DNA of 64,000 nucleotides from Pelagicoccus sp. SDUM812005 (GTDB taxonomy: Bacteria; Verrucomicrobiota; Verrucomicrobiia; Opitutales; Opitutaceae): assembly GCF_031127875.1 (NCBI RefSeq), contig NZ_JARXIA010000013.1, positions 62,001-126,000 on the forward strand. The letters run 5' to 3'. The position numbers and the translations under genes were made by a program. Positions 8,864-45,524 of the stretch are shown here, in pieces. The notes beneath the pieces are model-generated. The model made no database searches and was not told where the DNA came from. It was given only the letters and a program-made list of their open reading frames with translations. Numbering within the stretch: the first letter of the stretch is position 1; every line of letters starts with the position of its first letter.

Positions 8864-11800
8864 TGTGTTTGGCATAGGGTTTTTGAGGGAATCGACACCA
8901 GCACCTGCGCAACGGCTCCGGTTCGAGAAAAGAGGCTCGCAGACTCTTCCACGCTGAGCTCCAGCTTCGAACGCTGCGTCACGCGGCCATCCGAGAGCGT
9001 CAGGCTCACTCCCGCCTCCTCCGCGATCCGAAAGACAAAGGGCGTCTGGCAATAGGTGAACGCCAAGGTACCTGCCTCCAATTCGACAGACTGAACGCCT
9101 CCAGCGACATCGATATACTCAAACGTATCCACATCCTGAATAAACTCGGACTCCTTCAGCAACTTAGGATCGAAACGTATCCGCCCTTCCGATACTCGAA
9201 CGCCAAGCTCACCCCAGCGCGAAAGGATATCTTCCTTCACCTGTCCCGTCATCCCCGGTTGCTGAGCGCCCATATGCTTCGGCGTATGCGAGTAGGCATC
9301 GATTGGGAACGCTCCGTAGGCCGCCGGCGACTTGTCGAAACCTAAGCCACTCAAACACTCGAAGTAGTGGCCGACCAAGGACTCGTAGGCCGCCTTCCCC
9401 TCCGCCTTCAGGCAATTCTCCTGAATCGCCAACACCAGCTTCGAGACCATGTGCCAATAGACGCTGCCCAGACCTTCGTACGCGAAGAAGGTACCGGAGC
9501 GACCGGTAAAGCTTCGATGGTCGAAAGTCTCCTCGAACAACTCCAAAACCTCGCGTACCCTTTCCTCGTTCCCCAAGATTTCGTAGTCCGCAGCCAAGCG
9601 CCCTAGGGCCAACTCGACATCGCCCGCGTTCTTGAACGAGCCATTGAAGCGAAAGACGCCGCGACTATCCTGGGCGATAATCCTCTCGTCACCGCTAGCC
9701 AACATCGCCTGCAGCGCCGCGCAGCGCTCCACCTTCTCGGAAGACACTCGATTCTTTTCCAGGAATCGCGGCAGATCCTTGTCTGGATACAGCATGTAGC
9801 TCTGCACGTCCTCTCGGTAGAGTCGGCTCCGCCGCAAGCCATCCAGCAATTCCACAGCCGCTTCAGGCGCCAATCGATTGGAGCTCAACGCAGCCACCTG
9901 CCCTTCCAGCATCTCTGGCAAGCGGCCAATCTCGACAGCCTCCGCTCCGCTGGGACGCAACAAATTGTAGGAATGGTACATCGCGTCGGAACGGCGATTC
10001 GAATCGATCGAATGCCCGACGAACCGTTCCGCTCGCTTCAAGAAGCCGCGCAAAACGTCTAGCTTCAATTCTACCCGCGAAACGCCTAGCCGACCTCCGT
10101 ATACAGATTCCCGATACGCTTCGCCGGACTCCCCGAGAGCCTCCAACAATTGGTAACGCGTCTCGGCATCCGTCCCCTTTTCCAGAACCGGTTCGAAACG
10201 CTCGAAGATCCCATCCAGCTCCACCAAAAAGGTCGCCACCTTTTCATCGACGTTCAGCTCTCGCTCAGCAGGGATCGCATCCACGAGGGGCGCCAAAAAC
10301 TCGAGGTAACGATTCACATAACAAAGCGTCACCACCGAAACTCCGTAGCCCACCAGCGCATTGTTCGCATCATTCCACTCCGGCCGCTGCGTATTCATCC
10401 AAATACCACCGTCGAGGACGAAATTCGACAGCTTCGCCAACAGCGGAGAAAGCAGTTTCTCCATCAAATTCGCCCGCACGATTTCCCCTTCGTCGTTTCG
10501 CAAGAGCTTGCCGTCCGCTCCGATCTTTCCCTCTCGCTCGCCTAAGACTTCGGAGGCTGCATCGTCGTAGAAAACGGTTTGGCGAGGATCCTTCCAGATC
10601 GAAGCAAAGCCACGAATGCGATACGGCACGTGAGCATAGACAAAGAGTTCCTTATCGCAAAGTTCCACCAGTGCCGCAGGAGCGTGCCGGTGCAACGCTT
10701 CGAGCAGTTTGAGAAGGTAGATGACCTGATGGTCTCCCCAATACCCGATATTCGACCACGGCTCATTCGGATCCAAGGTTTCCCAATCGAACCCATCCCT
10801 CGTCACCCGGTAGGGATTGTAGCCGTCAGCCGTAGTCGCATTCAGGAAACGGAAGATCATTCCTGTCAGGTATTCTGGATACGCATACCCCAAGGGTTCC
10901 CAGTTTTGGAAGATATCGCGCCAGTTACCCTGATAGGCCAAGACTGGATTTCCTTCCTCGTCCTGCGTCTCGATGGAAAACTTGTTCCAAGGGCGGCTTG
11001 GATCGCCGTGACGCCTGCTGAACGAAAGCGGAAGGTACTCGCAGGCCAAGCGAAACAAGTCTGGATCTTGCCGCCCCTCGGCCCACTCCACAAGATCGCC
11101 GCGGCTAACGCTGGCTCCGAGCACCGTTTCTAGGGACGCGTACTTCTCTCCCAACGGCTTGTTCCAAGACCCGAGGTACCGACAGAAGTCAGCAACCGAA
11201 ATCCTGTAGCCGTCGTTGAAGACTCCGCCTCTCATAACGTTGAACAAGGTGTTGGAACGGTGCCGGGCGTCTCGAATGGGATTGGCCGTAAGCTGCAGTC
11301 CGTCGCTGGCGCCCACCTTCGAACGCAAGAGTCGCTGGTTTTCGAGAAAATCCTTCCTCAGTTCCTCAGCCAGGCTCGGGGCGCCGTTCAAGGTTTCGCG
11401 CAAGCGCTCGATCTGCCCGGCATCCTGCTCGATTTCCGCAGCCATCCACCATTGCCTCTCTTCGTTTCCAGCCAACTGGAAGGAGGATTCCACGAAGTAG
11501 GAACAGCGCTCTCCTCGCGTCTCCTCCTCGGCTACGAGCGCCTCCCCTTTGCGAAACGCCTCCAACTGCCTCGAGCAAAGCAACACGCAGTCACGGTCAA
11601 TTCCCGTTGACCACGCCACGCTGGCCTTCAGCCCCTCGCTCGGCTCCGCTCTATCGGTAGGAATCGAGCTGAGATAATAAATTCCCAGCCCTTCTTCCGG
11701 CAGCAATTCGTTCTTCTTGTACGCGTCGGCCAGATTGCTGAAGTGGCTAACGAAATTCTGGTCGAGGCCATAAGGTACCAAATTTTGGATACCATCGAGA

Positions 11801-36408: not shown

Positions 36409-36658
36409 CGGTGCCTTAATCCCTTGCACTCCTGAATCCACAATATCTGTCCCTTTTCTCACAAAACATGTCGTACATTTTTTGCCAAATGCATCACCTC
36501 TTCGTTCATCCCTCAAACAAGAGAAAGCACACTACCCACTGAATCATAACACCTTACAAAAGCAAAACCCAGCGTCCCCTTCCGTTGGCATCGCCCGTGC
36601 AAAACTTGTGATCGAAAATCGGCAATCACGCCCTTCGAAAACACACAACCGCACGAAA

Positions 36659-37318
36659 ATGAAGAAACTGAAATACTGGACAGCAAGCATCGTCTCTGGA
36701 TTCGACTCCGTCATCAGCAAGGTAGAGAATCACGAGTCCGTAGTCGCAAACTCGATACAGGAACTGCAAACCGCTGCCGCGCACGCCAAGGTCAAGCTCG
36801 GCCGCCTGCAACAGGACATCAAGCGCATGCAGTCCAAGCTGCTAGACCTTAAGCAGAGCCGGGAACGCTGGAACGAGCGGGCCCTCAGCCTGCGCGACAG
36901 CGACAAAAGCAAAGCCATCGAGTGCCTGAGAAGACGCAAAAGCGTGGAGTCGGAAATCGCCCATCTGGAGAACGAACTTCCAAGCCACACGACCCTCGCC
37001 GACACCATCGAAGCGGACGTGCGAAAGCTCCAAAGCAAGATCGACGACCTCAAGCTGCGCAAACGCGCCTTCAGCACCCGAGCCAGCCGCGCCCAAGCCA
37101 TGAAAGTTTGCGGACAAACTACGGGCATCGCCGGCGACGACTTGGAAGACACCTTCGAACGCTGGGAACTTAAGCTGGCCGAGACCGAGATTTCCTCCCA
37201 CGTCTCCACCGACTCCCTCGAAGACGAATTCGCCCGCGAGGAGGAGTTCGCTGAACTCGAGGAGGAGCTCGCCCTCCTGAACAAGGCGGAAAAATCGAGC
37301 GCAGCCCCTCAAGACTAA
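36659..37318 (+). CDS. PspA/IM30-like coiled-coil protein
   Basis: 219 residues from the ATG at 36659; the frame extends upstream but that part looks non-coding. Almost the entire chain is predicted coiled coil: a central antiparallel pair (about 25-135) with heptads rich in K, E, L and R, a basic stretch, and an acidic C-terminal helix (EEEFAELEEELALL). This is the PspA/IM30/Vipp1 plan of membrane-remodelling stress proteins, although the usual amphipathic N-terminal helix is shortened to about MKKLKYWTASIVSGFDSVI. It lies 22 bp upstream of a polytopic membrane protein on the same strand. Envelope-stress protection is the likely role. Divergent from recQ over 250 bp. Confidence 0.75.
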   Translation: MKKLKYWTASIVSGFDSVISKVENHESVVANSIQELQTAAAHAKVKLGRLQQDIKRMQSKLLDLKQSRERWNERALSLRDSDKSKAIECLRRRKSVESEIAHLENELPSHTTLADTIEADVRKLQSKIDDLKLRKRAFSTRASRAQAMKVCGQTTGIAGDDLEDTFERWELKLAETEISSHVSTDSLEDEFAREEEFAELEEELALLNKAEKSSAAPQD

Positions 37319-37339
37319 CCTTCAGATCCAATCTCCAAA

Positions 37340-38698
37340 ATGAATCACGATACCTATTCAATTCCAGACGAAGAGCCGGCGCAGGCCGAAGAAACCGACC
37401 CACAAGCCGCTGAAGACCGCCGCATCTGGAGCCGCCTGCCGCAGCTTCTGCGCTGGATCGGCGGCATCTCTCTCGCGGGCTCGGCCATCACCTTCTTGCT
37501 CGGCGGCTGGATGGAGGCGGAACCGCTCATTCGCTACTACAGCTTCTTCGCCCTCACCAGCGCCCTTTCCCTGGCCGGCGTATTCTGCGGCCTGAAACTC
37601 AAGGAGGACAAAGGGGCTCGCACCTTCCTATCCTTGGGAACGGCCTTTATCCCGGTCCTGTTCTGCCAACTCGGAGCCATCGTCTACGCTCAGCTAAAAG
37701 GAACTACGTCCCAATTTTCTGAATACTTCGAGATCTTCCAGTTTTCTCCTATCGGCATTCCGCTTCTAGCCCTTACCGTCACCATCGCTCTGATCCTGCT
37801 GAGCGCCTACGCCTTCTTTGGCTTCTCCGCCATGGCGCGACCCGTCGCCAAAAAGCTGACCGCGCTCTATATCGCAGCCAACGCATGCTTGCTCATCCCC
37901 TTGCGCGAAGACGTTGCCATCGCCAGCATCGGATTCGTCCTGCTCGCCGCCCTCGCAGTCATCGATCGCAAAGATCTCTCAAAGATATCAGCCCTCAGGA
38001 CATGGGATGGCCGTGCCATGCGTTCGCTTCTCTTCGTTCCCTTCGCCCTACTCCTTTTGCGCAGCGTTCTCCTGTACCAAACCTCGAACCTGTTGGTCGG
38101 ACTATTCTCAGCCTCGATCGCTACCCTTTTCTTCTTCGGGCTTCCTCAAGCCTCGGATAGCATAGGCTGGAAACGCATCTTCCAGCACCTCAGCCTCCCG
38201 CCGCTCGCCATTGCCTGCATCAGCATCGGCCTCCCCCTCATCAAACGTATCAGCTTCTTCGGTACAGATCCTTTCGTTCCCTTGCTCGTCCTGCCGAGCG
38301 CCTTGCTCGTCCTTTTCCTCTCGCATCGTAGCGCCGCATCCGGACGTTCCTTCCGCTTCATCGCTATCGCGGCCGCCTTGACAGCGACGACCTTAACGAT
38401 GGCCGATTCCGACGGATTCGTGACCGCCTTGACCGCCCTTCTCGTTGCCATAGGCTGCACTATCTATTCCTACGCCATTCGAGAAAAGATCATACTCTTC
38501 ATGGGGCTTTGCGGAACCGCCCTCAGCCTCGCCTTCCACGTCAGCTTTGCGGCCGAACTCTACCGCAGCAACCTTTGGCTCTCGCTCGCCGCCACCGGCG
38601 TGGCCGTCATCCTCGCCGCCTCCTACGTCGAACGCAATTGGCAGACGCTGCTGGCTCAGGGCAAGGGCTTCCGCCACAAGCTCGACGACTGGAACTAA
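37340..38698 (+). CDS. Polytopic membrane protein of unknown function, neighbour of the PspA-like gene
   Basis: 452 residues with an acidic cytoplasmic N-terminus (about 1-28) and then about 12 hydrophobic helices, among them ISLAGSAITFLLGG, TALYIAANACLLIPL, IGFVLLAALAVID, SLLFVPFALLLLR and LLALTVTIALILLSAYAFFGF. It resembles the DUF2157-type membrane proteins in overall plan, but I cannot assign a family with confidence. The final segment is basic and polar (VERNWQTLLAQGKGF). The tight spacing (22 bp) to the PspA-like gene suggests a membrane partner that recruits or is protected by it. A terminator-like hairpin follows. Confidence 0.65.
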   Translation: MNHDTYSIPDEEPAQAEETDPQAAEDRRIWSRLPQLLRWIGGISLAGSAITFLLGGWMEAEPLIRYYSFFALTSALSLAGVFCGLKLKEDKGARTFLSLGTAFIPVLFCQLGAIVYAQLKGTTSQFSEYFEIFQFSPIGIPLLALTVTIALILLSAYAFFGFSAMARPVAKKLTALYIAANACLLIPLREDVAIASIGFVLLAALAVIDRKDLSKISALRTWDGRAMRSLLFVPFALLLLRSVLLYQTSNLLVGLFSASIATLFFFGLPQASDSIGWKRIFQHLSLPPLAIACISIGLPLIKRISFFGTDPFVPLLVLPSALLVLFLSHRSAASGRSFRFIAIAAALTATTLTMADSDGFVTALTALLVAIGCTIYSYAIREKIILFMGLCGTALSLAFHVSFAAELYRSNLWLSLAATGVAVILAASYVERNWQTLLAQGKGFRHKLDDWN

Positions 38699-39389: not shown

Positions 39390-40142
39390 CTAAAGCCGCG
39401 CTCCAGATTCGCTCAGGGCCAACACGTCTTGATACAGTTCGTTCGCGAGCAGCTTCCGATCCTCTCCCGGCTGTCGTTGCTGACCGAATACCACGCTGGC
39501 CTCCACACGCTTCACCTTGCTCATTCGCAGCAGGTGCTCCGCGAAGCCCATGTCGCCCCACCAGCATACGTCTTGCGCAACATCCCCTTCCTCGCATTCA
39601 TATTTCAAATACGCTGGCGTGATCGGCCAACCGTTCGCCACCAAAGGCTGCAGCAAGGAAGCCCGAAACGGCAGCACTGCCCGTCCGTCGGTTGAGGTGC
39701 CCTCCAAGAAAAACGTCATGTTCAAACCAGAGGCAATCACCTCGGCGAAGGCAGCTTCCTTGGTAGCCACGTCGGAACGGCGACGGCGATCGATATAGAG
39801 AGTCCCTGCCATGCGACAATAGGCGCCCACCACCGGCCAGGAATCGACCTCCACCTTCGACAAGAAAACCTGAGGCGCCACCGACGCGAGCACGATGATA
39901 TCCATATAGCTCAGATGGTTCGGGGCAATGAAACCGCCGCTCGGAACCTCGCCCCGAACCGTCACGCGAAACCCGACCGCCCGCAGCATCAAAGCCGCGT
40001 TGCGCTGCAGCCAAGCGGAGCGTTCCTTGCGGCTCGCGTTTCTCCCTACCCGGAACAGGAAATCCAGTCCTGCAATAATGAATACACCGGCCAAGGCGCC
40101 TAGGCGACGGACTTGACGGAGTTTGAGGACGAGGAACCGCAT
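39390..40142 (-). CDS. PlsC-like lysophospholipid/lyso-ornithine-lipid acyltransferase
   Basis: 250 residues. A short hydrophobic N-terminal segment (about 13-30) anchors the protein. The glycerol-3-phosphate/lysophospholipid acyltransferase motifs are NHLSYMD (HX4D, about 75-81), a Glu-Gly-Thr box reading EGTSTDG where most relatives have PEGTRS, and a later LVANGWPITPAYL stretch. It is 74 bp downstream of an OlsB-like N-acyltransferase gene. That pairing fits the O-acylation step (OlsA) of ornithine-lipid synthesis, though 1-acyl-glycerol-3-phosphate acylation is an alternative. Confidence 0.8.
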   Translation of the reverse strand: MRFLVLKLRQVRRLGALAGVFIIAGLDFLFRVGRNASRKERSAWLQRNAALMLRAVGFRVTVRGEVPSGGFIAPNHLSYMDIIVLASVAPQVFLSKVEVDSWPVVGAYCRMAGTLYIDRRRRSDVATKEAAFAEVIASGLNMTFFLEGTSTDGRAVLPFRASLLQPLVANGWPITPAYLKYECEEGDVAQDVCWWGDMGFAEHLLRMSKVKRVEASVVFGQQRQPGEDRKLLANELYQDVLALSESGARL

Positions 40143-40216
40143 CCACCTTTCAATGCGGACTCCCCTTCTCTTTTCAAGCTCCGAGCTTCGCTCCCAGCTT
40201 GCCCGCAGCGCTGCCT

Positions 40217-41011
40217 TCAGCCCAAAAACTTAGCCATGGCCCGCGGCCCCAGCGAACGGAGGTCGAGCAAGGTCAGGAAATCGATCGTCTTAAAGTCTTG
40301 GTCCAAGGCCGGCTCGCCGCAGATGCGGGCGCCCAAGGTCAGGTAGGCGCGCATCAAACGCGGGATGTCCACCGTACGCGAAAGAGCGATGATCTCCGAC
40401 TCGTCCGCGCCCGCGGCGCTGCAATCGTACCGTTCCGTCGGCTTGGTCAAAAACGGCTCCGCCGCAAGGTAGCGGGACAACTTACGGAAAGCAGCCTGCC
40501 CCTCCAAGGGATCGGTCGAAGTGATCGAGCTGCAGCCAATCAAGTAGCGAGCCTCGCACAGCTTCGCGTACTGGGCGATCCCCTTCCACAGCAACCCCAG
40601 CACCACCATGTTGCGATGCTCCTTGGCGATGCACGCCCGCCCGAGCTCGATGGTCTGCGAACGGATGGATTCGAAGGGCGAAAAGTCGAACTCCTGTTCG
40701 CTATAGTAACCTATATTAGCCAAGGCCGACTCGCCCGTCTGCAGACGATAGGTCCCGATGATCTCGCCCGAAATAACATGCTCTATCAAAAGATGGTCGC
40801 AAACGACGTCGAACGGGTCCGCGTCCTTGCCCGTCGCTTCCGACTCCACCAAGCCCTCGCCCAACTCCACGTTGAATACGCGATAGCGAAGGCGTTGAGC
40901 TTTGGCTACATCGGCATCGCTATCGGAGATGCGAACCTTGTATGCAGAAGTCGGTGACGGAGGTATGAATCGCTCGACGCGCTTTCTCCTATCGTTGGCA
41001 CTGATGGGCAT
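40217..41011 (-). CDS. OlsB-like GNAT N-acyltransferase (aminolipid synthesis)
   Basis: About 264 residues from the ATG at 41011; a GTG at 41053 is a weaker alternative. The family features are RYRVFNVELGEGL, DPFDVVCDHLLI, EIIGTYRLQTGESA, FDFSPFESI, then ELGRACIAKEHRN and LLWKGIAQYA, with LIGCSSITSTDP. This is the pattern of OlsB-type proteins that transfer 3-hydroxyacyl groups from acyl carrier protein to the alpha-amino group of ornithine. With the downstream PlsC-like gene it makes a two-gene aminolipid pathway, useful where phosphate is scarce. The amino-acid specificity (ornithine, lysine, glutamine) cannot be told. Confidence 0.8.
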   Translation of the reverse strand: MPISANDRRKRVERFIPPSPTSAYKVRISDSDADVAKAQRLRYRVFNVELGEGLVESEATGKDADPFDVVCDHLLIEHVISGEIIGTYRLQTGESALANIGYYSEQEFDFSPFESIRSQTIELGRACIAKEHRNMVVLGLLWKGIAQYAKLCEARYLIGCSSITSTDPLEGQAAFRKLSRYLAAEPFLTKPTERYDCSAAGADESEIIALSRTVDIPRLMRAYLTLGARICGEPALDQDFKTIDFLTLLDLRSLGPRAMAKFLG

Positions 41012-41180
41012 GGCTGTAAGGTAGTGAGGTGGTGAGCTAAACCTCTCGTCCACCTAGGCTGGGAATCATCTACTAGGAGACATGCGAGTCAATAGCGCCA
41101 CACGAACCAGCTCCCCTTTTAACGCCGGCGTCACCTGCCATTAACCTGACTGATACAAAACGCCTCGGCCCCAAGCTGCC

Positions 41181-42002
41181 TCAATAAAAGAAATCCTTGG
41201 CCTTCTCGTACTCGGCCAAAGCGTCTTCAAGGTAGCTGTGCAAAGCGTTCAAACGGTCCATGGAAGACGGATGTGTCGAGTTGTAGTTGTTGCCGCCCAT
41301 TCCGCCTTCCAGCTCTACCATGCGCTCCATCACGGTGATCGCAGCATTCGGATCATAGCCAGCCTTGGCCATGTATATAATTCCAATATGGTCGGCCTCC
41401 GCCTCCTTGCCCTGGTCCCAGGCCGCCGCCACTTGTCCGGCGCCCATTCCGTAAATACCCATGATCATCGGGGCCGCGTTGATGTATCCACCGCTGCCGA
41501 TCGCCGCCGTGCCCCCCAAGGCCGCAGCCACTCCGATCAGGGAGCTTCCCGCTCCTAGGACCATCTGCTGGGAAATCCTTTCGTGGGTGTGCCGCGCCGT
41601 GACGTGGGCGATCTCGTGGGCCACCACCGAAGCGAGCTCGTCTTCCGTCTTTACGATCTGGAACAAGCCAACGAAAACGCCAACCTTGCCGCCCGGCATC
41701 GCAAACGCGTTCACCTCCGGCTGGTCGAACACCACGAATTCCCACTCCGCCATCGGCATGTCCCAAAAGACCTGCTGGGAAATGCGTTCGCCCACGTTCT
41801 GCAGCATCTCGTTGTAGACCGCGTGCGTAGAGATCGGCATCTGCGCCTTCATCTGCTCGAAGGTCGCGATCGACATCTTGGCGACCTCCGTTTCCGAAGT
41901 CAGGTTCATCTGCTTGCGCCCTGTAACCGGAGCAGTACTACAAGCGCTAAAAAGAAGAGCTGAACTCAGCAGAACGGGGAGGCAATATTTAGAAGTCTTC
42001 AT
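41181..42002 (-). CDS. M48-family metallopeptidase lipoprotein
   Basis: 273 residues from the ATG at 42002. The signal peptide ends in a lipobox, LLFSAC, so the protein is a lipoprotein tethered on the periplasmic face. The protease domain carries HEIAH (His129, Glu130, His133) as the zinc site with EAEADHIG as the downstream ligand helix, and a mid-chain Gly-rich helical region. It resembles the LoiP/BepA/YcaL periplasmic M48 proteases that look after outer-membrane proteins, but it has no TPR region. It is divergent from the TPR-membrane gene of the following cluster across 374 bp, close enough for functional relation but only as inference. Confidence 0.88.
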   Translation of the reverse strand: MKTSKYCLPVLLSSALLFSACSTAPVTGRKQMNLTSETEVAKMSIATFEQMKAQMPISTHAVYNEMLQNVGERISQQVFWDMPMAEWEFVVFDQPEVNAFAMPGGKVGVFVGLFQIVKTEDELASVVAHEIAHVTARHTHERISQQMVLGAGSSLIGVAAALGGTAAIGSGGYINAAPMIMGIYGMGAGQVAAAWDQGKEAEADHIGIIYMAKAGYDPNAAITVMERMVELEGGMGGNNYNSTHPSSMDRLNALHSYLEDALAEYEKAKDFFY

Positions 42003-42376: not shown

Positions 42377-44089
42377 ATGGCAGATCTCCAAGATCCCTCA
42401 CAACAAACGCCCAAGAAACACAAGGTTATCCACTGGAACCCCGAAGAAGACGACCTCGGATCAAATGCGAAGCCTGCCGTTAAAGCCTACTTGGGCGGCG
42501 CCATCGTGGCGCTCGTAATCGTCGGGATCGGCGTGATCAGCTACTTCCTGTTCTACTACACGCCTCCCAGCTCCAACGCCGAAGCCATAGCCGCCGCCGG
42601 AGCCGCCGCCGAGGCGGACCCCCGCCGCGCCTTCGAAAGCGTTTCCCGCGCCCAAGGCGTCAAGGACTCGGTAGACCGCAAGCTCGAGGCCGCCCGCCAA
42701 ATGCCCATCACCGGCAACGAGGTCCTCCGCCAAAAGCTCATCAACATCGAGAAGGAAAAGATCGAAGCCGACGACCTGATGTCGAAGAACCGCTTCGCCC
42801 GGGCCATCGCCCAGTACAACAGCGTCGACGCCTTGATCGAGAATTTCACCCAAGAAGTCGAAAACAAGCAAAAGGCCCGCGGCCTCTACGACGACTTCCT
42901 CGTCCGCTCCGGCGAACTCGAAAACGCCAAGCACCTCAACGAAGAAAGCTTCGAAGCCGCTTTCGGGCTCGCCTCCGAAGGCAAGAAGTTCCTCGACTCC
43001 GGCAGCTTCACCCTCGCCCTCCAGCGCATGGAAGAAGCCTCCAACTCGCTCAACGCCGTACAAAAGGCCAAGCAGGACTACATCCGCAGCAACGCCGCCG
43101 AAGGCAACCGCTTCATCGCCCAAGGCAAGAGCGAGGAAGCCATCGCCGCCTTCACCAAGGTTCTCGAGCTCGATCCCGCCAACGAAGAGGCCCTCAAGCA
43201 GCTCGAACGCTCCCGCGTCGCGGACAAGGTTTTCGCCGCCCTCCAGTCGGCCAAGGAAAACGAGGACGCCCTCCAGTACGAAACCGCCCTGAAATTCTAC
43301 CGCCAAGCCGCCTCCATCGACGCCGGCTCCGCCAAGGCCCAGTCCGGCGTCTCCCGCGTGAACCGCAAGATCGCGGAACGCGACTTCGCCGCCGCCTACA
43401 CCGCCGCGCAAACCGCTATCGCGGAATCCCGTTTCCAAGACGCCATCGTCAACTACCAGGCCGCCCTCAAGATCTTTCCCGAGCGCACCGACATCGAGGC
43501 CGCTATCGAAAAAGCGGCTGCCGAAAAGCGCCAGAACGACATCGTCACCCGCATCACCCAAGCCTACGAGTACGAGCGCGTCTACGACTGGGAAAGCGCC
43601 CGCAACCTCTACCAGGAGCTCGTACAAATGGAGCCCGACCTCAAGGAAGCGAAGGACGGCCTGCTCCGGACCGGTCGCATGATCCGCAGCATCCTGCGCT
43701 ACGAAACCTTGATCGAAGTCGCCAAGGGCGAAGCCCAGCGCACCGAGTTCCAGCTCGCCATCCGCACCTTCGACGAAGCCATGAAGTCCAAGCCCGAGTA
43801 CCTCCCCCTCACCGAAGAAGGCGAACGGCTCCGCAAGTTCCTCCAGCTGCAAAGCCAGCCGGTCCGCGTCACCCTCATCTCCGACGGCTCCACCTGGGTC
43901 AGCGTGCAAGGCCCCACCATGCGCAAGCCTGAAAAGTTCGACAGCACCACCGTCGACCTCCTACCCGGCAAGTACTTTATCATCGGCCGCAAGAAAGGAT
44001 ACCAGGACGTACGCTTCGGCATTCAAATCCGCGGCGGCATGGCCCAAGACCCCATAACCGTATCCGCAAACGTCAAAAACGACTACTAG
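42377..44089 (+). CDS. Membrane-anchored TPR-like protein with C-terminal PEGA-like domain
   Basis: 570 residues. A short polar cytoplasmic N-terminus (1-36) is followed by one membrane helix (about 37-60, GGAIVALVIVGIGVISYFLF). The large exported part is helical, rich in A, E, K and Q, with TPR-like units such as EEAIAAFTKVLELDPANEEAL, YETALKFYRQAASIDAGSA, FQDAIVNYQAALKIFPERTD and ESARNLYQELVQMEPDLKEA. The last 75 residues are a beta-rich domain (LLPGKYFIIGRKKGYQDV) typical of PEGA-type surface modules. The strong Shine-Dalgarno suggests good expression. It is the first gene of a cluster of three exported proteins. The function is unknown; a surface scaffold is likely. Confidence 0.7.
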   Translation: MADLQDPSQQTPKKHKVIHWNPEEDDLGSNAKPAVKAYLGGAIVALVIVGIGVISYFLFYYTPPSSNAEAIAAAGAAAEADPRRAFESVSRAQGVKDSVDRKLEAARQMPITGNEVLRQKLINIEKEKIEADDLMSKNRFARAIAQYNSVDALIENFTQEVENKQKARGLYDDFLVRSGELENAKHLNEESFEAAFGLASEGKKFLDSGSFTLALQRMEEASNSLNAVQKAKQDYIRSNAAEGNRFIAQGKSEEAIAAFTKVLELDPANEEALKQLERSRVADKVFAALQSAKENEDALQYETALKFYRQAASIDAGSAKAQSGVSRVNRKIAERDFAAAYTAAQTAIAESRFQDAIVNYQAALKIFPERTDIEAAIEKAAAEKRQNDIVTRITQAYEYERVYDWESARNLYQELVQMEPDLKEAKDGLLRTGRMIRSILRYETLIEVAKGEAQRTEFQLAIRTFDEAMKSKPEYLPLTEEGERLRKFLQLQSQPVRVTLISDGSTWVSVQGPTMRKPEKFDSTTVDLLPGKYFIIGRKKGYQDVRFGIQIRGGMAQDPITVSANVKNDY

Positions 44090-44126
44090 TCAGCCCCACC
44101 GCCTGAAACCGCTAACCACTAAAACC

Positions 44127-45062
44127 ATGGCCAATTCGCACAAATTCCTTAGTCGCCTAGAACTTTTCTCTGTCGCGCTGGGCTTGAGCGTAGCCGCCGC
44201 GGTCGAAGCGCAGATCGATCCCGATCCCTCGATCTACGACGCAGTACAAAACGGAGCCAGTTCCAACGGCGGAAAAATCAAGGCCAACAATTCCCCGCTC
44301 GGCGGCAGCATTACGCCCGTCAACGAATCGCAACTCCCGCCCATCGATATCCAAACCAACATTCCCGGCATCAACGGAAATCCCATCAACATGCCAGGTG
44401 GCCTCCCCGGAGCCATCGCCCAAGCAGCAGGAGGTGGAAGCTCCGGCATGCCTCCTATCATGGGCGGCGGTGGAGGCGGCGGCCAAAGCGGAGGGCAACA
44501 AAGCCCCTTCCCCATGCCCTCCTCCCAAGGTCAAAGCCAAGGTCAGCAGGGTCAACAAGGGCAACAGGGTCAGCAAGGACAACAAGGCCAGCAAGGTCAA
44601 CAGGGTCAGCAAGGACAGCAGGGCCAGCAAGGGCAACAAGGTCAACAAGGTCAACAGGGTCAGCAAGGGCAACAGGGTCAGCAAGGACAACAAGGGCAAC
44701 AGGGACAGCAGGGACAACAAGGGCAGCAGGGTCAACAAGGCCAGCAAGGCCAGCAGGGACAAGCCGGCAGCCAGTCCTCTATTTCTAGCCAAATGCCGCC
44801 TCCTCCCGAGGAACAAGCCATCGGAAGCGAGGGCGAACAAATCGACCCCAATGGCGAACTCGCATCCCAGAGCGAAGGCGGCGAAGCCGGCGAAAGCGGT
44901 GAACAGCAAGCCAGCCGCAAGGGTCGCCAGAATTCCGGCGGCCAGCAAGACGAAGCCACCGAAGGCGACGGCCAAGCCATGCCGGAAAACATCGGCGGCT
45001 CCTCCGGCAGCAAACGCGGAAAAGGCACCATCGACGACGTCGCCGTTCCCTCCAACCTATAG
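44127..45062 (+). CDS. Secreted low-complexity protein with 24 Gly-Gln-Gln repeats
   Basis: 311 residues with a signal peptide (MANSHKFLSRLELFSVALGLSVAAAVEA). A beta-prone region (about 30-110) is followed by Gly-rich segments, then residues 139-210 are 24 uninterrupted GQQ triplets. The C-terminal 100 residues are acidic and polar (E, S, Q, G) and end in a short basic patch. Gly at every third position matches collagen-like Gly-X-Y, but Gln at both X and Y is unusual and no proline is present, so a polyproline/collagen helix is not assured. It lies 37 bp after the TPR-membrane gene and 21 bp before a small secreted protein. Likely surface or matrix role; inference only. Confidence 0.72.
   Translation: MANSHKFLSRLELFSVALGLSVAAAVEAQIDPDPSIYDAVQNGASSNGGKIKANNSPLGGSITPVNESQLPPIDIQTNIPGINGNPINMPGGLPGAIAQAAGGGSSGMPPIMGGGGGGGQSGGQQSPFPMPSSQGQSQGQQGQQGQQGQQGQQGQQGQQGQQGQQGQQGQQGQQGQQGQQGQQGQQGQQGQQGQQGQQGQQGQQGQQGQQGQAGSQSSISSQMPPPPEEQAIGSEGEQIDPNGELASQSEGGEAGESGEQQASRKGRQNSGGQQDEATEGDGQAMPENIGGSSGSKRGKGTIDDVAVPSNL
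44541..44756 (+). repeat. Tandem 9-bp repeat encoding 24 GQQ triplets
   Basis: 216 bases, 24 copies of Gly-Gln-Gln codons. The third positions vary (GGT, GGG, GGA, GGC; CAA, CAG), so the protein pattern, not the exact DNA, is kept. Copy number may vary between strains. Confidence 0.92.
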
Positions 45063-45083
45063 AAGAATAAGAATCTCCCACGC

Positions 45084-45524
45084 ATGAAAACCCTTCTCGC
45101 AATCGGCATCGCGCTCCTAGCCTCCTGCTTCGCCCAAGCCCAGCAAGAACGCGTCATCGTATACCCCGTCGAAGCCATCGCGGACGGAGCCCGCTTCTCC
45201 AAGCAAAAGTTCATGGAAACCTACCCCGGGATCGACGTCACCCAATACGGGCTCTCCGACGAAGGCTGGTACATTCGCTACAAGCACGAGCTGCTCACCT
45301 ACCTCTACGGCCCGATCGAAGACCTCACCTACGCCCGCCGCCAAAAGAAGCTGCTGGAAGAAATCCGACTTTCCGTCGTCCTGAAGAAGCCATCGCTGAG
45401 CAGCAGCACGGTGGACATCATACGCTTCGACTTCAATGCCACTCCCGAAAACATGGGAGTCGCCGAAGACGTGGACAACCCCTACCTCATTCCCGAACTA
45501 AGCGGCGAGAAAGAGGAGAACTAG
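45084..45524 (+). CDS. Small secreted protein of unknown function
   Basis: 146 residues with a clear signal peptide (MKTLLAIGIALLASCFAQA, then QQ). The body is amphipathic: VIVYPVEAIADGARF, SKQKFMETYPGIDVTQYG, DEGWYIRYKHELLTYLYG, LTYARRQKKLLEEIRLSVV, and the C-terminus is acidic (ELSGEKEEN). I do not recognise the family. It is the third gene of a cluster of exported proteins (21 bp after the GQQ gene) and probably shares its operon and fate. Convergent with the oxidoreductase gene. Confidence 0.6.
   Translation: MKTLLAIGIALLASCFAQAQQERVIVYPVEAIADGARFSKQKFMETYPGIDVTQYGLSDEGWYIRYKHELLTYLYGPIEDLTYARRQKKLLEEIRLSVVLKKPSLSSSTVDIIRFDFNATPENMGVAEDVDNPYLIPELSGEKEEN

Follow-up and report, generated by a model that had tools for sequence, protein, structure and literature searches.

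A 64,000-nucleotide stretch of the genome of Pelagicoccus sp. SDUM812005 (Verrucomicrobiota, Opitutales; contig NZ_JARXIA010000013.1, positions 62,001 to 126,000; hereafter the window) carries three consecutive genes for exported proteins, here called g1, g2 and g3. A first-pass annotation made from the sequence had read them as an undescribed module in which a membrane-anchored TPR protein faces a collagen-like, GQQ-repeat filament at the cell surface. Asking what these genes do together, we arrive at a different reading: g1-g2-g3 are probably the envelope half of a proton-driven, trans-envelope force machine, whose motor would be formed by a TolQ-like pentamer and two VWA proteins. Directly supported are the joint inheritance of these parts, the order of their genes, a conserved aspartate in the motor and conserved protein tails.

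The three genes are inherited together. The annotation had named a lack of co-occurrence in related genomes as grounds for giving up the module. Of 132 genomes from the order Opitutales, 24 contain g1 (matches at E ≤ 1e-8); g3, matched at E ≤ 1e-3, occurs in 21 genomes, each of them among the 24. In 18 of these 21 the two genes are no more than 3 kb apart, and in the other three (G008, G011, G089) they are on separate contigs. All seven other genomes of the genus keep the order g1-g2-g3 along with a divergent M48-type peptidase gene. Neighbourhoods were compared for the window and 20 further loci, which represent 21 of the 24 g1-positive order genomes (G064, G078 and G099 were left out).

These genes also share their distribution with a second operon. 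Three families (L046, L050, L062) have a convergent operon past g3, directly or after one or two genes. It encodes a MotA/TolQ/ExbB domain protein (TolQ-like), an Hsp70/FHA-like protein and a pair of VWA proteins anchored in the membrane (VWA1 and VWA2). All 18 order genomes with VWA2 are g1-positive, as against 6 of the 114 others (Fisher p = 2e-17, the genomes not being independent). Strong TolQ-like matches (E < 1e-70) occur in 19 order genomes, every one g1-positive; weaker ones (1e-24 to 1e-30) in eight further genomes resemble other ExbB proteins. Among 288 genomes of the phylum, VWA2 was found in 18, g1 in 20 and both in 17; the three g1-only matches are a degraded copy in G065 and two (G287, G335) that match the TPR part alone. 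Seven of 25 genomes of family f1 have both genes and the other 18 have neither, and even inside one genus (g6) the pair is patchy, present in G266 and G378 and absent from G080 and G238. All eight genomes of the window's own genus contain g1 and VWA2, and one of them, G394, carries both a second time as a linked pair. The g1 set adjoins the motor genes in families f1, f5, f8 and f49 and lies 9 kb away in f11; the window's genome has its motor on another contig (Table 1). In G008 the TolQ-like and Hsp70-like genes, the VWA pair, g1-g2 and g3 are spread over four contigs, and all are present. Some g1 matches in family f44 are weak (1e-17 to 1e-36), and three of the four f44 loci have a PEGA-FGE gene (see below) beside g1.

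Two loci deserve separate mention. The second copy in G394 (L331, G394:C85, 7991-20000) is divergent and encodes, on one strand, VWA2, VWA1, a TolQ-like protein, a PEGA-FGE protein and g1. In G065, a genome of 1.7 Mb, g1 (L063, G065:C6:255287-258131) is interrupted by in-frame stops and no VWA2 match was found; here the whole system seems to be decaying.

The motor proteins were aligned for 17 VWA2, 16 VWA1 and 17 TolQ-like sequences. Pfam MotA_ExbB scored above its cut-off in all three TolQ-like relatives scanned. The TolQ-like protein of the window's genome matched TIGR02796 (tolQ) at E = 1.4e-6 with 28 bits, far below the cut-off of 221, and the family profile matched TolQ in the PDB at E = 7e-4. 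In both VWA proteins the N-terminal helix (FLDCICCGFGA) is accompanied by a coiled-coil-like stretch and a VWA domain, and an invariant aspartate opens the membrane helix in 17/17 VWA2 and 16/16 VWA1 sequences. The two are unlike in their VWA domains: DTSGS is kept in all 17 VWA2 proteins and DxSxS is missing from 14 of 16 VWA1 proteins, while Pfam VWA_2 was matched at E ≤ 0.1 by 16/17 and 8/16, respectively. ExbD was absent from the full Pfam tables of the window genome's two VWA proteins, and neither is among that genome's 12 ExbD matches. The Hsp70/FHA-like protein combines an FHA domain with an Hsp70-like profile (PDB, E = 3e-9).

A pair of this kind has been predicted before. The accessible part of PMC12204202 (Mol Biol Evol 2025) predicts that TPH-vWA proteins, paired and carrying a conserved aspartate, sit as a dimer inside a TolQ-like pentamer, in a system with no known phenotype; the 5:2 complex, in which vWA proteins replace TolR/ExbD, is an AlphaFold 3 prediction. 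A TPR partner is reported there for another vWA family. For the paired-vWA family the text of that paper, as far as accessible, mentions no partner of g1, g2 or FGE type, and its figure 4c may draw neighbours. In the literature searched, from which subscription journals were mostly absent, we found no description of g1-g2-g3 or of a link to the motor. On that literature, the annotation's view of an undescribed system holds; its three-gene module is incomplete, the TolQ-like/VWA motor appearing to be the other half.

The annotation's N-terminally anchored TPR protein is borne out by g1, which has TPR matches above the Pfam cut-off and a single hydrophobic segment at residues 41-59 (mean hydropathy 2.5). 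An AlphaFold2 (AF2) model of the protein (predicted local distance difference test score, pLDDT, 86.9; predicted template modelling score 0.54) has a helix at residues 37-60, a helical array up to residue 492 and six strands between 496 and 551. The best Foldseek matches were TPR superhelices (E = 4.5e-5) with low TM-scores. A basic N-terminus (KKHKVIHWNP) ahead of the helix suggests an N-in topology, and the TPR array is presumably periplasmic. Conservation is strongest in the strand domain: five of the seven invariant residues (D503, T506, P530, Y533 and G537) in an alignment of 19 of the 24 order members fall there. Calling this end PEGA-like, as the annotation did, is fair in view of the six-strand model and a profile comparison (hhalign, 91.5% over 35 columns, against PEGA repeats picked by pattern and run without a control). 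A true PEGA domain is unproven, and Pfam PEGA was absent from the 24 Pfam families matched by the 19 g1 relatives.

The second protein, g2, is presumed to be an exported tether with a variable middle and conserved ends; its signal peptide, like that of g3, was judged by eye. The unbroken run of 24 GQQ triplets was confirmed, among 26 in total. Its codons are synonymously mixed (GGT 10, GGG 5, GGA 5 and GGC 4, with both CAA and CAG), so a protein repeat is encoded here by varied DNA. The same gene has 23, 10, 20, 0, 7, 6 and 11 GQQ triplets in the seven congeners, and over the order the middle region varies between Gln/Gly-, Gly/Ser-, Lys/Ser/Asn-, Pro/Gly- and Glu-rich. A pattern search of the 21 order loci found both ends (an N-terminal DPxIFD-type and a C-terminal PSDL-type motif) in 16, the C-terminal tail alone in three and neither in two. 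With repeat number and composition varying while the ends are kept, the repeat is filler and selection acts on the ends. The conserved core of g2, as read from these sequences, is thus its ends, above all the C-terminal tail of IPSDL type.

The annotation's description of g3 as belonging to no recognisable family holds: Pfam gave no match, and NCBIfam gave one chance row far below its cut-off. Past a signal helix, the AF2 model shows an E-H-H-E-E-H-E arrangement (E, strand; H, helix) with ferredoxin/SPOR-like topology. No clear match to this fold was found; the best Foldseek hit had E = 2.1, and the best VIA-align hits (Z = 3.3) were pieces of RND porters and RuBisCO small subunits, with SPOR in no row. 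A comparison with PDB sequences returned a single match at E = 0.73, and SPOR was missing from the Pfam matches of 13 g3 members at E ≤ 1. The g3 alignment covers 13 of the 21 members with spacers trimmed. An aromatic C-terminal helix (for example WWEMIKGIFGG) ends 15 of 21 g3 proteins by pattern, the window's being counted among the 21; the pattern missed the G011 protein, whose end looks similar. The long spacer and the aromatic helix typical of order relatives are both lacking in the window's g3 and its seven congeners (L333-L339).

The same set occurs in other phyla. From a scan of named sequences with VWA2 we took the best 80 of at least 166 relatives, which among the matches listed are mostly Gammaproteobacteria by title, with Desulfobacterota, Myxococcales, Vicinamibacteria and Kiritimatiellae. 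Counts refer to 51 listed non-Opitutales loci, setting aside 13 Opitutales-type loci (including L215, titled only Verrucomicrobia) and loci with less than 7 kb upstream of VWA2, and admit any match with E < 1e-4, wherever it lies in the locus. By this measure g1 is present in 47 loci, a PEGA-FGE protein in 48, the TolQ-like protein in 49 and the Hsp70-like protein in 46. Many listed loci form a single operon of a lipoprotein, g1, PEGA-FGE, a small secreted protein, the TolQ-like protein, the Hsp70-like protein, VWA1, VWA2, two lipoproteins and an M48-type peptidase. The PEGA-FGE copies that we read have PEGA repeats, a membrane helix and no lipid site; their gene also follows g1 in three f8 loci, in the f49 locus and in three of the four f44 loci that have g1.

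The small protein encoded between the PEGA-FGE and TolQ-like genes has an FPVDI-type C-terminus in 44 of the 51 loci. In 50 of these loci, such ends were found in 44 of 135 forward ORFs lying between those two genes and in 0 of 137 reverse ones, against a background of 66 in 15907 ORFs that includes these. Family f8 has its genes arranged as g1, PEGA-FGE, g2 (ending in FPADI) and g3, which bridges both layouts and argues that the small FPVDI protein is g2. This assignment rests on place, a signal-like start and the tail rather than on whole-length similarity. As a separate observation, the operons of L217-L284 start (for example at L262:616-1479) with a gene for a low-complexity, often Gly-rich protein with a conserved C-terminus, DDDVVARQLREAA..REKLWEEYRKYK, ahead of the lipoprotein gene; 21 loci fall in this cluster.

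We propose the following arrangement. Inside the TolQ-like pentamer, the two VWA proteins would form the inner pair. An inner-membrane anchor would hold g1, whose TPR coil and PEGA-like end would reach into the periplasm, and g1 may serve as an adaptor between the VWA heads and the remaining parts. A flexible tether, g2 would dock with its free, plug-like C-terminal tail on a partner and bind outward with its other end, and g3 could be a small periplasmic binding domain peculiar to this lineage. In this way, force from the inner membrane would reach the cell wall or outer membrane. TPR grooves can hold C-terminal peptides, as Hop does with the EEVD ends of Hsp70 and Hsp90, and for this reason g1 is the first candidate receiver of the g2 tail; its strand domain may be the site instead, because the strongest conservation lies there. 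A surface position is less favoured, and a periplasmic location of the g1-g2-g3 parts seems more likely. Tentatively, and with less conviction than for the machine itself, we suggest a separate class of machines, occurring in Verrucomicrobiota, Gammaproteobacteria, Desulfobacterota, Myxococcales and an acidobacterial lineage. Its rotating pair of unlike VWA proteins would act by way of a TPR adaptor, pulling on a disordered tether with a five-residue C-terminal plug and so moving FGE-fold or other surface parts.

Several observations weigh against this proposal. Six g1-positive order genomes lack VWA2 (G064, G078, G099, G111, G065 and G014, the last 82% complete and with a TolQ-like match), VWA2-positive G268 has no g1 match, and a g1 match is missing from 4 of the 51 listed loci elsewhere. 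In the window's genome VWA1 has no Pfam VWA match and VWA2 only one at E = 0.07, and hhalign found no similarity between the VWA membrane helix and ExbD (probability 0.7%). The window's tail, VPSNL, differs from the proteobacterial tail. A PEGA-FGE query found one partial match in the window's genome, at C42, and no such gene as such. Within the 80 loci kept from the named scan, g3 matches are confined to those of Opitutales type.

The same gene set could instead serve envelope upkeep, as a Tol-Pal-like tether of the outer membrane or cell wall working with the M48 peptidase, and not movement or secretion. The resemblance to TolQ (below the TIGR02796 cut-off for the window genome's protein, and by profile to the PDB structure), the M48-type gene beside g1 in all seven congeners and in many proteobacterial operons, and the periplasmic look of the parts fit such a role, to which we give a real but minor chance; the patchiness within g6 is unlike a housekeeping function, and the FGE protein of a relative (L254, from Pseudoalteromonas denitrificans DSM 6059) finds its best match in GldK of the type IX secretion system (T9SS) and gliding machinery. 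GldK has an FGE-type fold. That match (E = 3.7e-26) would also suit a machine like the T9SS, in which a proton-driven motor moves a GldK-like FGE-fold structure carrying surface proteins, as would the place of the PEGA-FGE gene after g1 in f8, f44 and f49 and its frequency in other lineages. GldK itself is inferred, in the accessible part of PMC12635249, to be part of a moving track in Bacteroidota. At 92.4 bits the match is far below the equivalog cut-off of 350, FGE domains are common, and the PEGA-FGE protein has a membrane helix in place of a lipid site and is missing as such from the window's genome, so that we consider this version unlikely. A SprA search found nothing in 132 order genomes, nor did any control genome give a match.

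Three further readings carry little weight. That g1-g2-g3 share ancestry with the motor genes and act separately would agree with their being unlinked in the window's genome and with linkage being unseen in most motor-positive order genomes, many of them draft assemblies; a pattern of joint presence or absence that holds even inside one genus, and linkage in f1, f5, f8, f11, f49 and other phyla, make it very improbable. The annotation's filament, built from the GQQ protein on a TPR scaffold, draws on the Gly-X-Y array of the window copy, which scores 37.2 bits against Pfam Collagen (cut-off 27.2). We rejected it: within the genus the count runs from 26 GQQ down to none in G397, the middle differs in composition across the order and the ends alone are kept, leaving such a filament a slight chance at best. 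Anti-phage defence of the Zorya type was likewise rejected and is very unlikely; PADLOC returned weak ZorA matches for two TolQ-like proteins (E = 3.3e-6 and 5.3e-4) and nothing for the remaining eight of ten proteins scanned, with no further Zorya protein among them.

Table 1. Positions of the features discussed, in window coordinates unless a locus or contig is given
Feature	Position	Strand	Description and basis
g1	42377..44089	+	N-terminally anchored TPR protein, 570 aa; ORF; TPR families above cut-off
g1 transmembrane helix, residues 37-60	42485..42556	+	AF2 model helix; hydropathy peak 41-59
g1 TPR array, residues ~89-492	42641..43852	+	AF2 model helices; Foldseek
g1 C-terminal six-strand PEGA-like domain, residues 496-551	43862..44029	+	AF2 model
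g2	44127..45062	+	Low-complexity protein, 311 aa; ORF; conserved ends; export read by eye
g2 motif DPDPSIYD (PDPDIFDG type)	44217..44240	+	Directly past the presumed signal peptide cut
g2 run of 24 GQQ	44541..44756	+	Variable spacer, unconserved
g2 C-terminal tail VPSNL	45045..45059	+	C-terminal tail found in 19/21 order loci
g3	45084..45524	+	146 aa; beta-alpha-beta-beta-alpha-beta domain; AF2 model, pLDDT 85.8; export read by eye
M48 metallopeptidase	41181..42002	-	Divergent from g1; Pfam Peptidase_M48, E 2e-35; start 42002 and lipobox read by eye
Motor of the window's genome	G000:C53:197821-202375 (L126)		On a contig other than that of g1-g2-g3
VWA pair of the window's genome	L126:8215-9279 and 9276-10376		Adjoins the TolQ-like gene

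Gene maps were drawn with a simple ORF caller, and the starts of g2 and of several relatives were picked by pattern or as the first methionine. The caller placed all three genes where the first-pass annotation had them, on the plus strand with gaps of 37 and 21 bp. AAAGGAG ends 10 nt upstream of the g1 start, and weak purine stretches at most precede g2 and g3. A promoter scan of the window found no promoter, and a terminator scan gave no excess over shuffled sequences and none on the plus strand. The M48 metallopeptidase beside g1 is probably a lipoprotein and a possible extra member of the set: an ORF with HExxH is divergent from g1 in all seven congeners, and M48-like genes, labelled by motif and clustering, close many proteobacterial operons. 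Elsewhere in the window, an acyltransferase gene adjoins a GNAT (Acetyltransf_5) gene on the minus strand (39390-41053, by Pfam), an arrangement that we take to be reminiscent of ornithine-lipid synthesis. At 36482-38698 a gene for a PspA/IM30-like protein (Pfam E = 7e-14) is followed by one for a hydrophobic protein without a Pfam family.

To our knowledge, few proton-driven envelope machines are known: the flagellar stator, Ton, Tol, T9SS and Agl. The putative machine shares with the Tol-Pal and Ton motors (TolQR, ExbBD) the MotA/TolQ/ExbB domain and a membrane aspartate in the partner protein; it differs in that a VWA pair replaces TolR/ExbD and that TPR and tether proteins stand in the place of TolA/TonB, which were not themselves searched for. 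With GldKLMN of the T9SS and gliding apparatus it would have in common a proton-driven envelope machine and, in many relatives, an FGE-fold protein, which here bears PEGA repeats and a membrane helix. Bacterial collagen-like proteins (Scl) resemble the window's g2 in its Gly-X-Y stretch; the g2 repeat is missing or altered in close relatives, and NCBIfam Scl models score far below their cut-offs. In plan the putative machine is also like the paired TPH-vWA system, which, in the accessible part of PMC12204202, also has a TolQ-like gene, two unlike membrane-tethered vWA genes, a conserved aspartate and no tolR/exbD neighbour, and likewise occurs in Proteobacteria and Verrucomicrobia. To that description, as far as accessible, the present analysis adds g1, the g2 tail, g3, PEGA-FGE and Hsp70/FHA. 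The vWA motor pair now has a conserved set of partners. Among them are a presumed TPR adaptor and a protein whose short tail can be removed cleanly, which makes the system testable in cultured bacteria.

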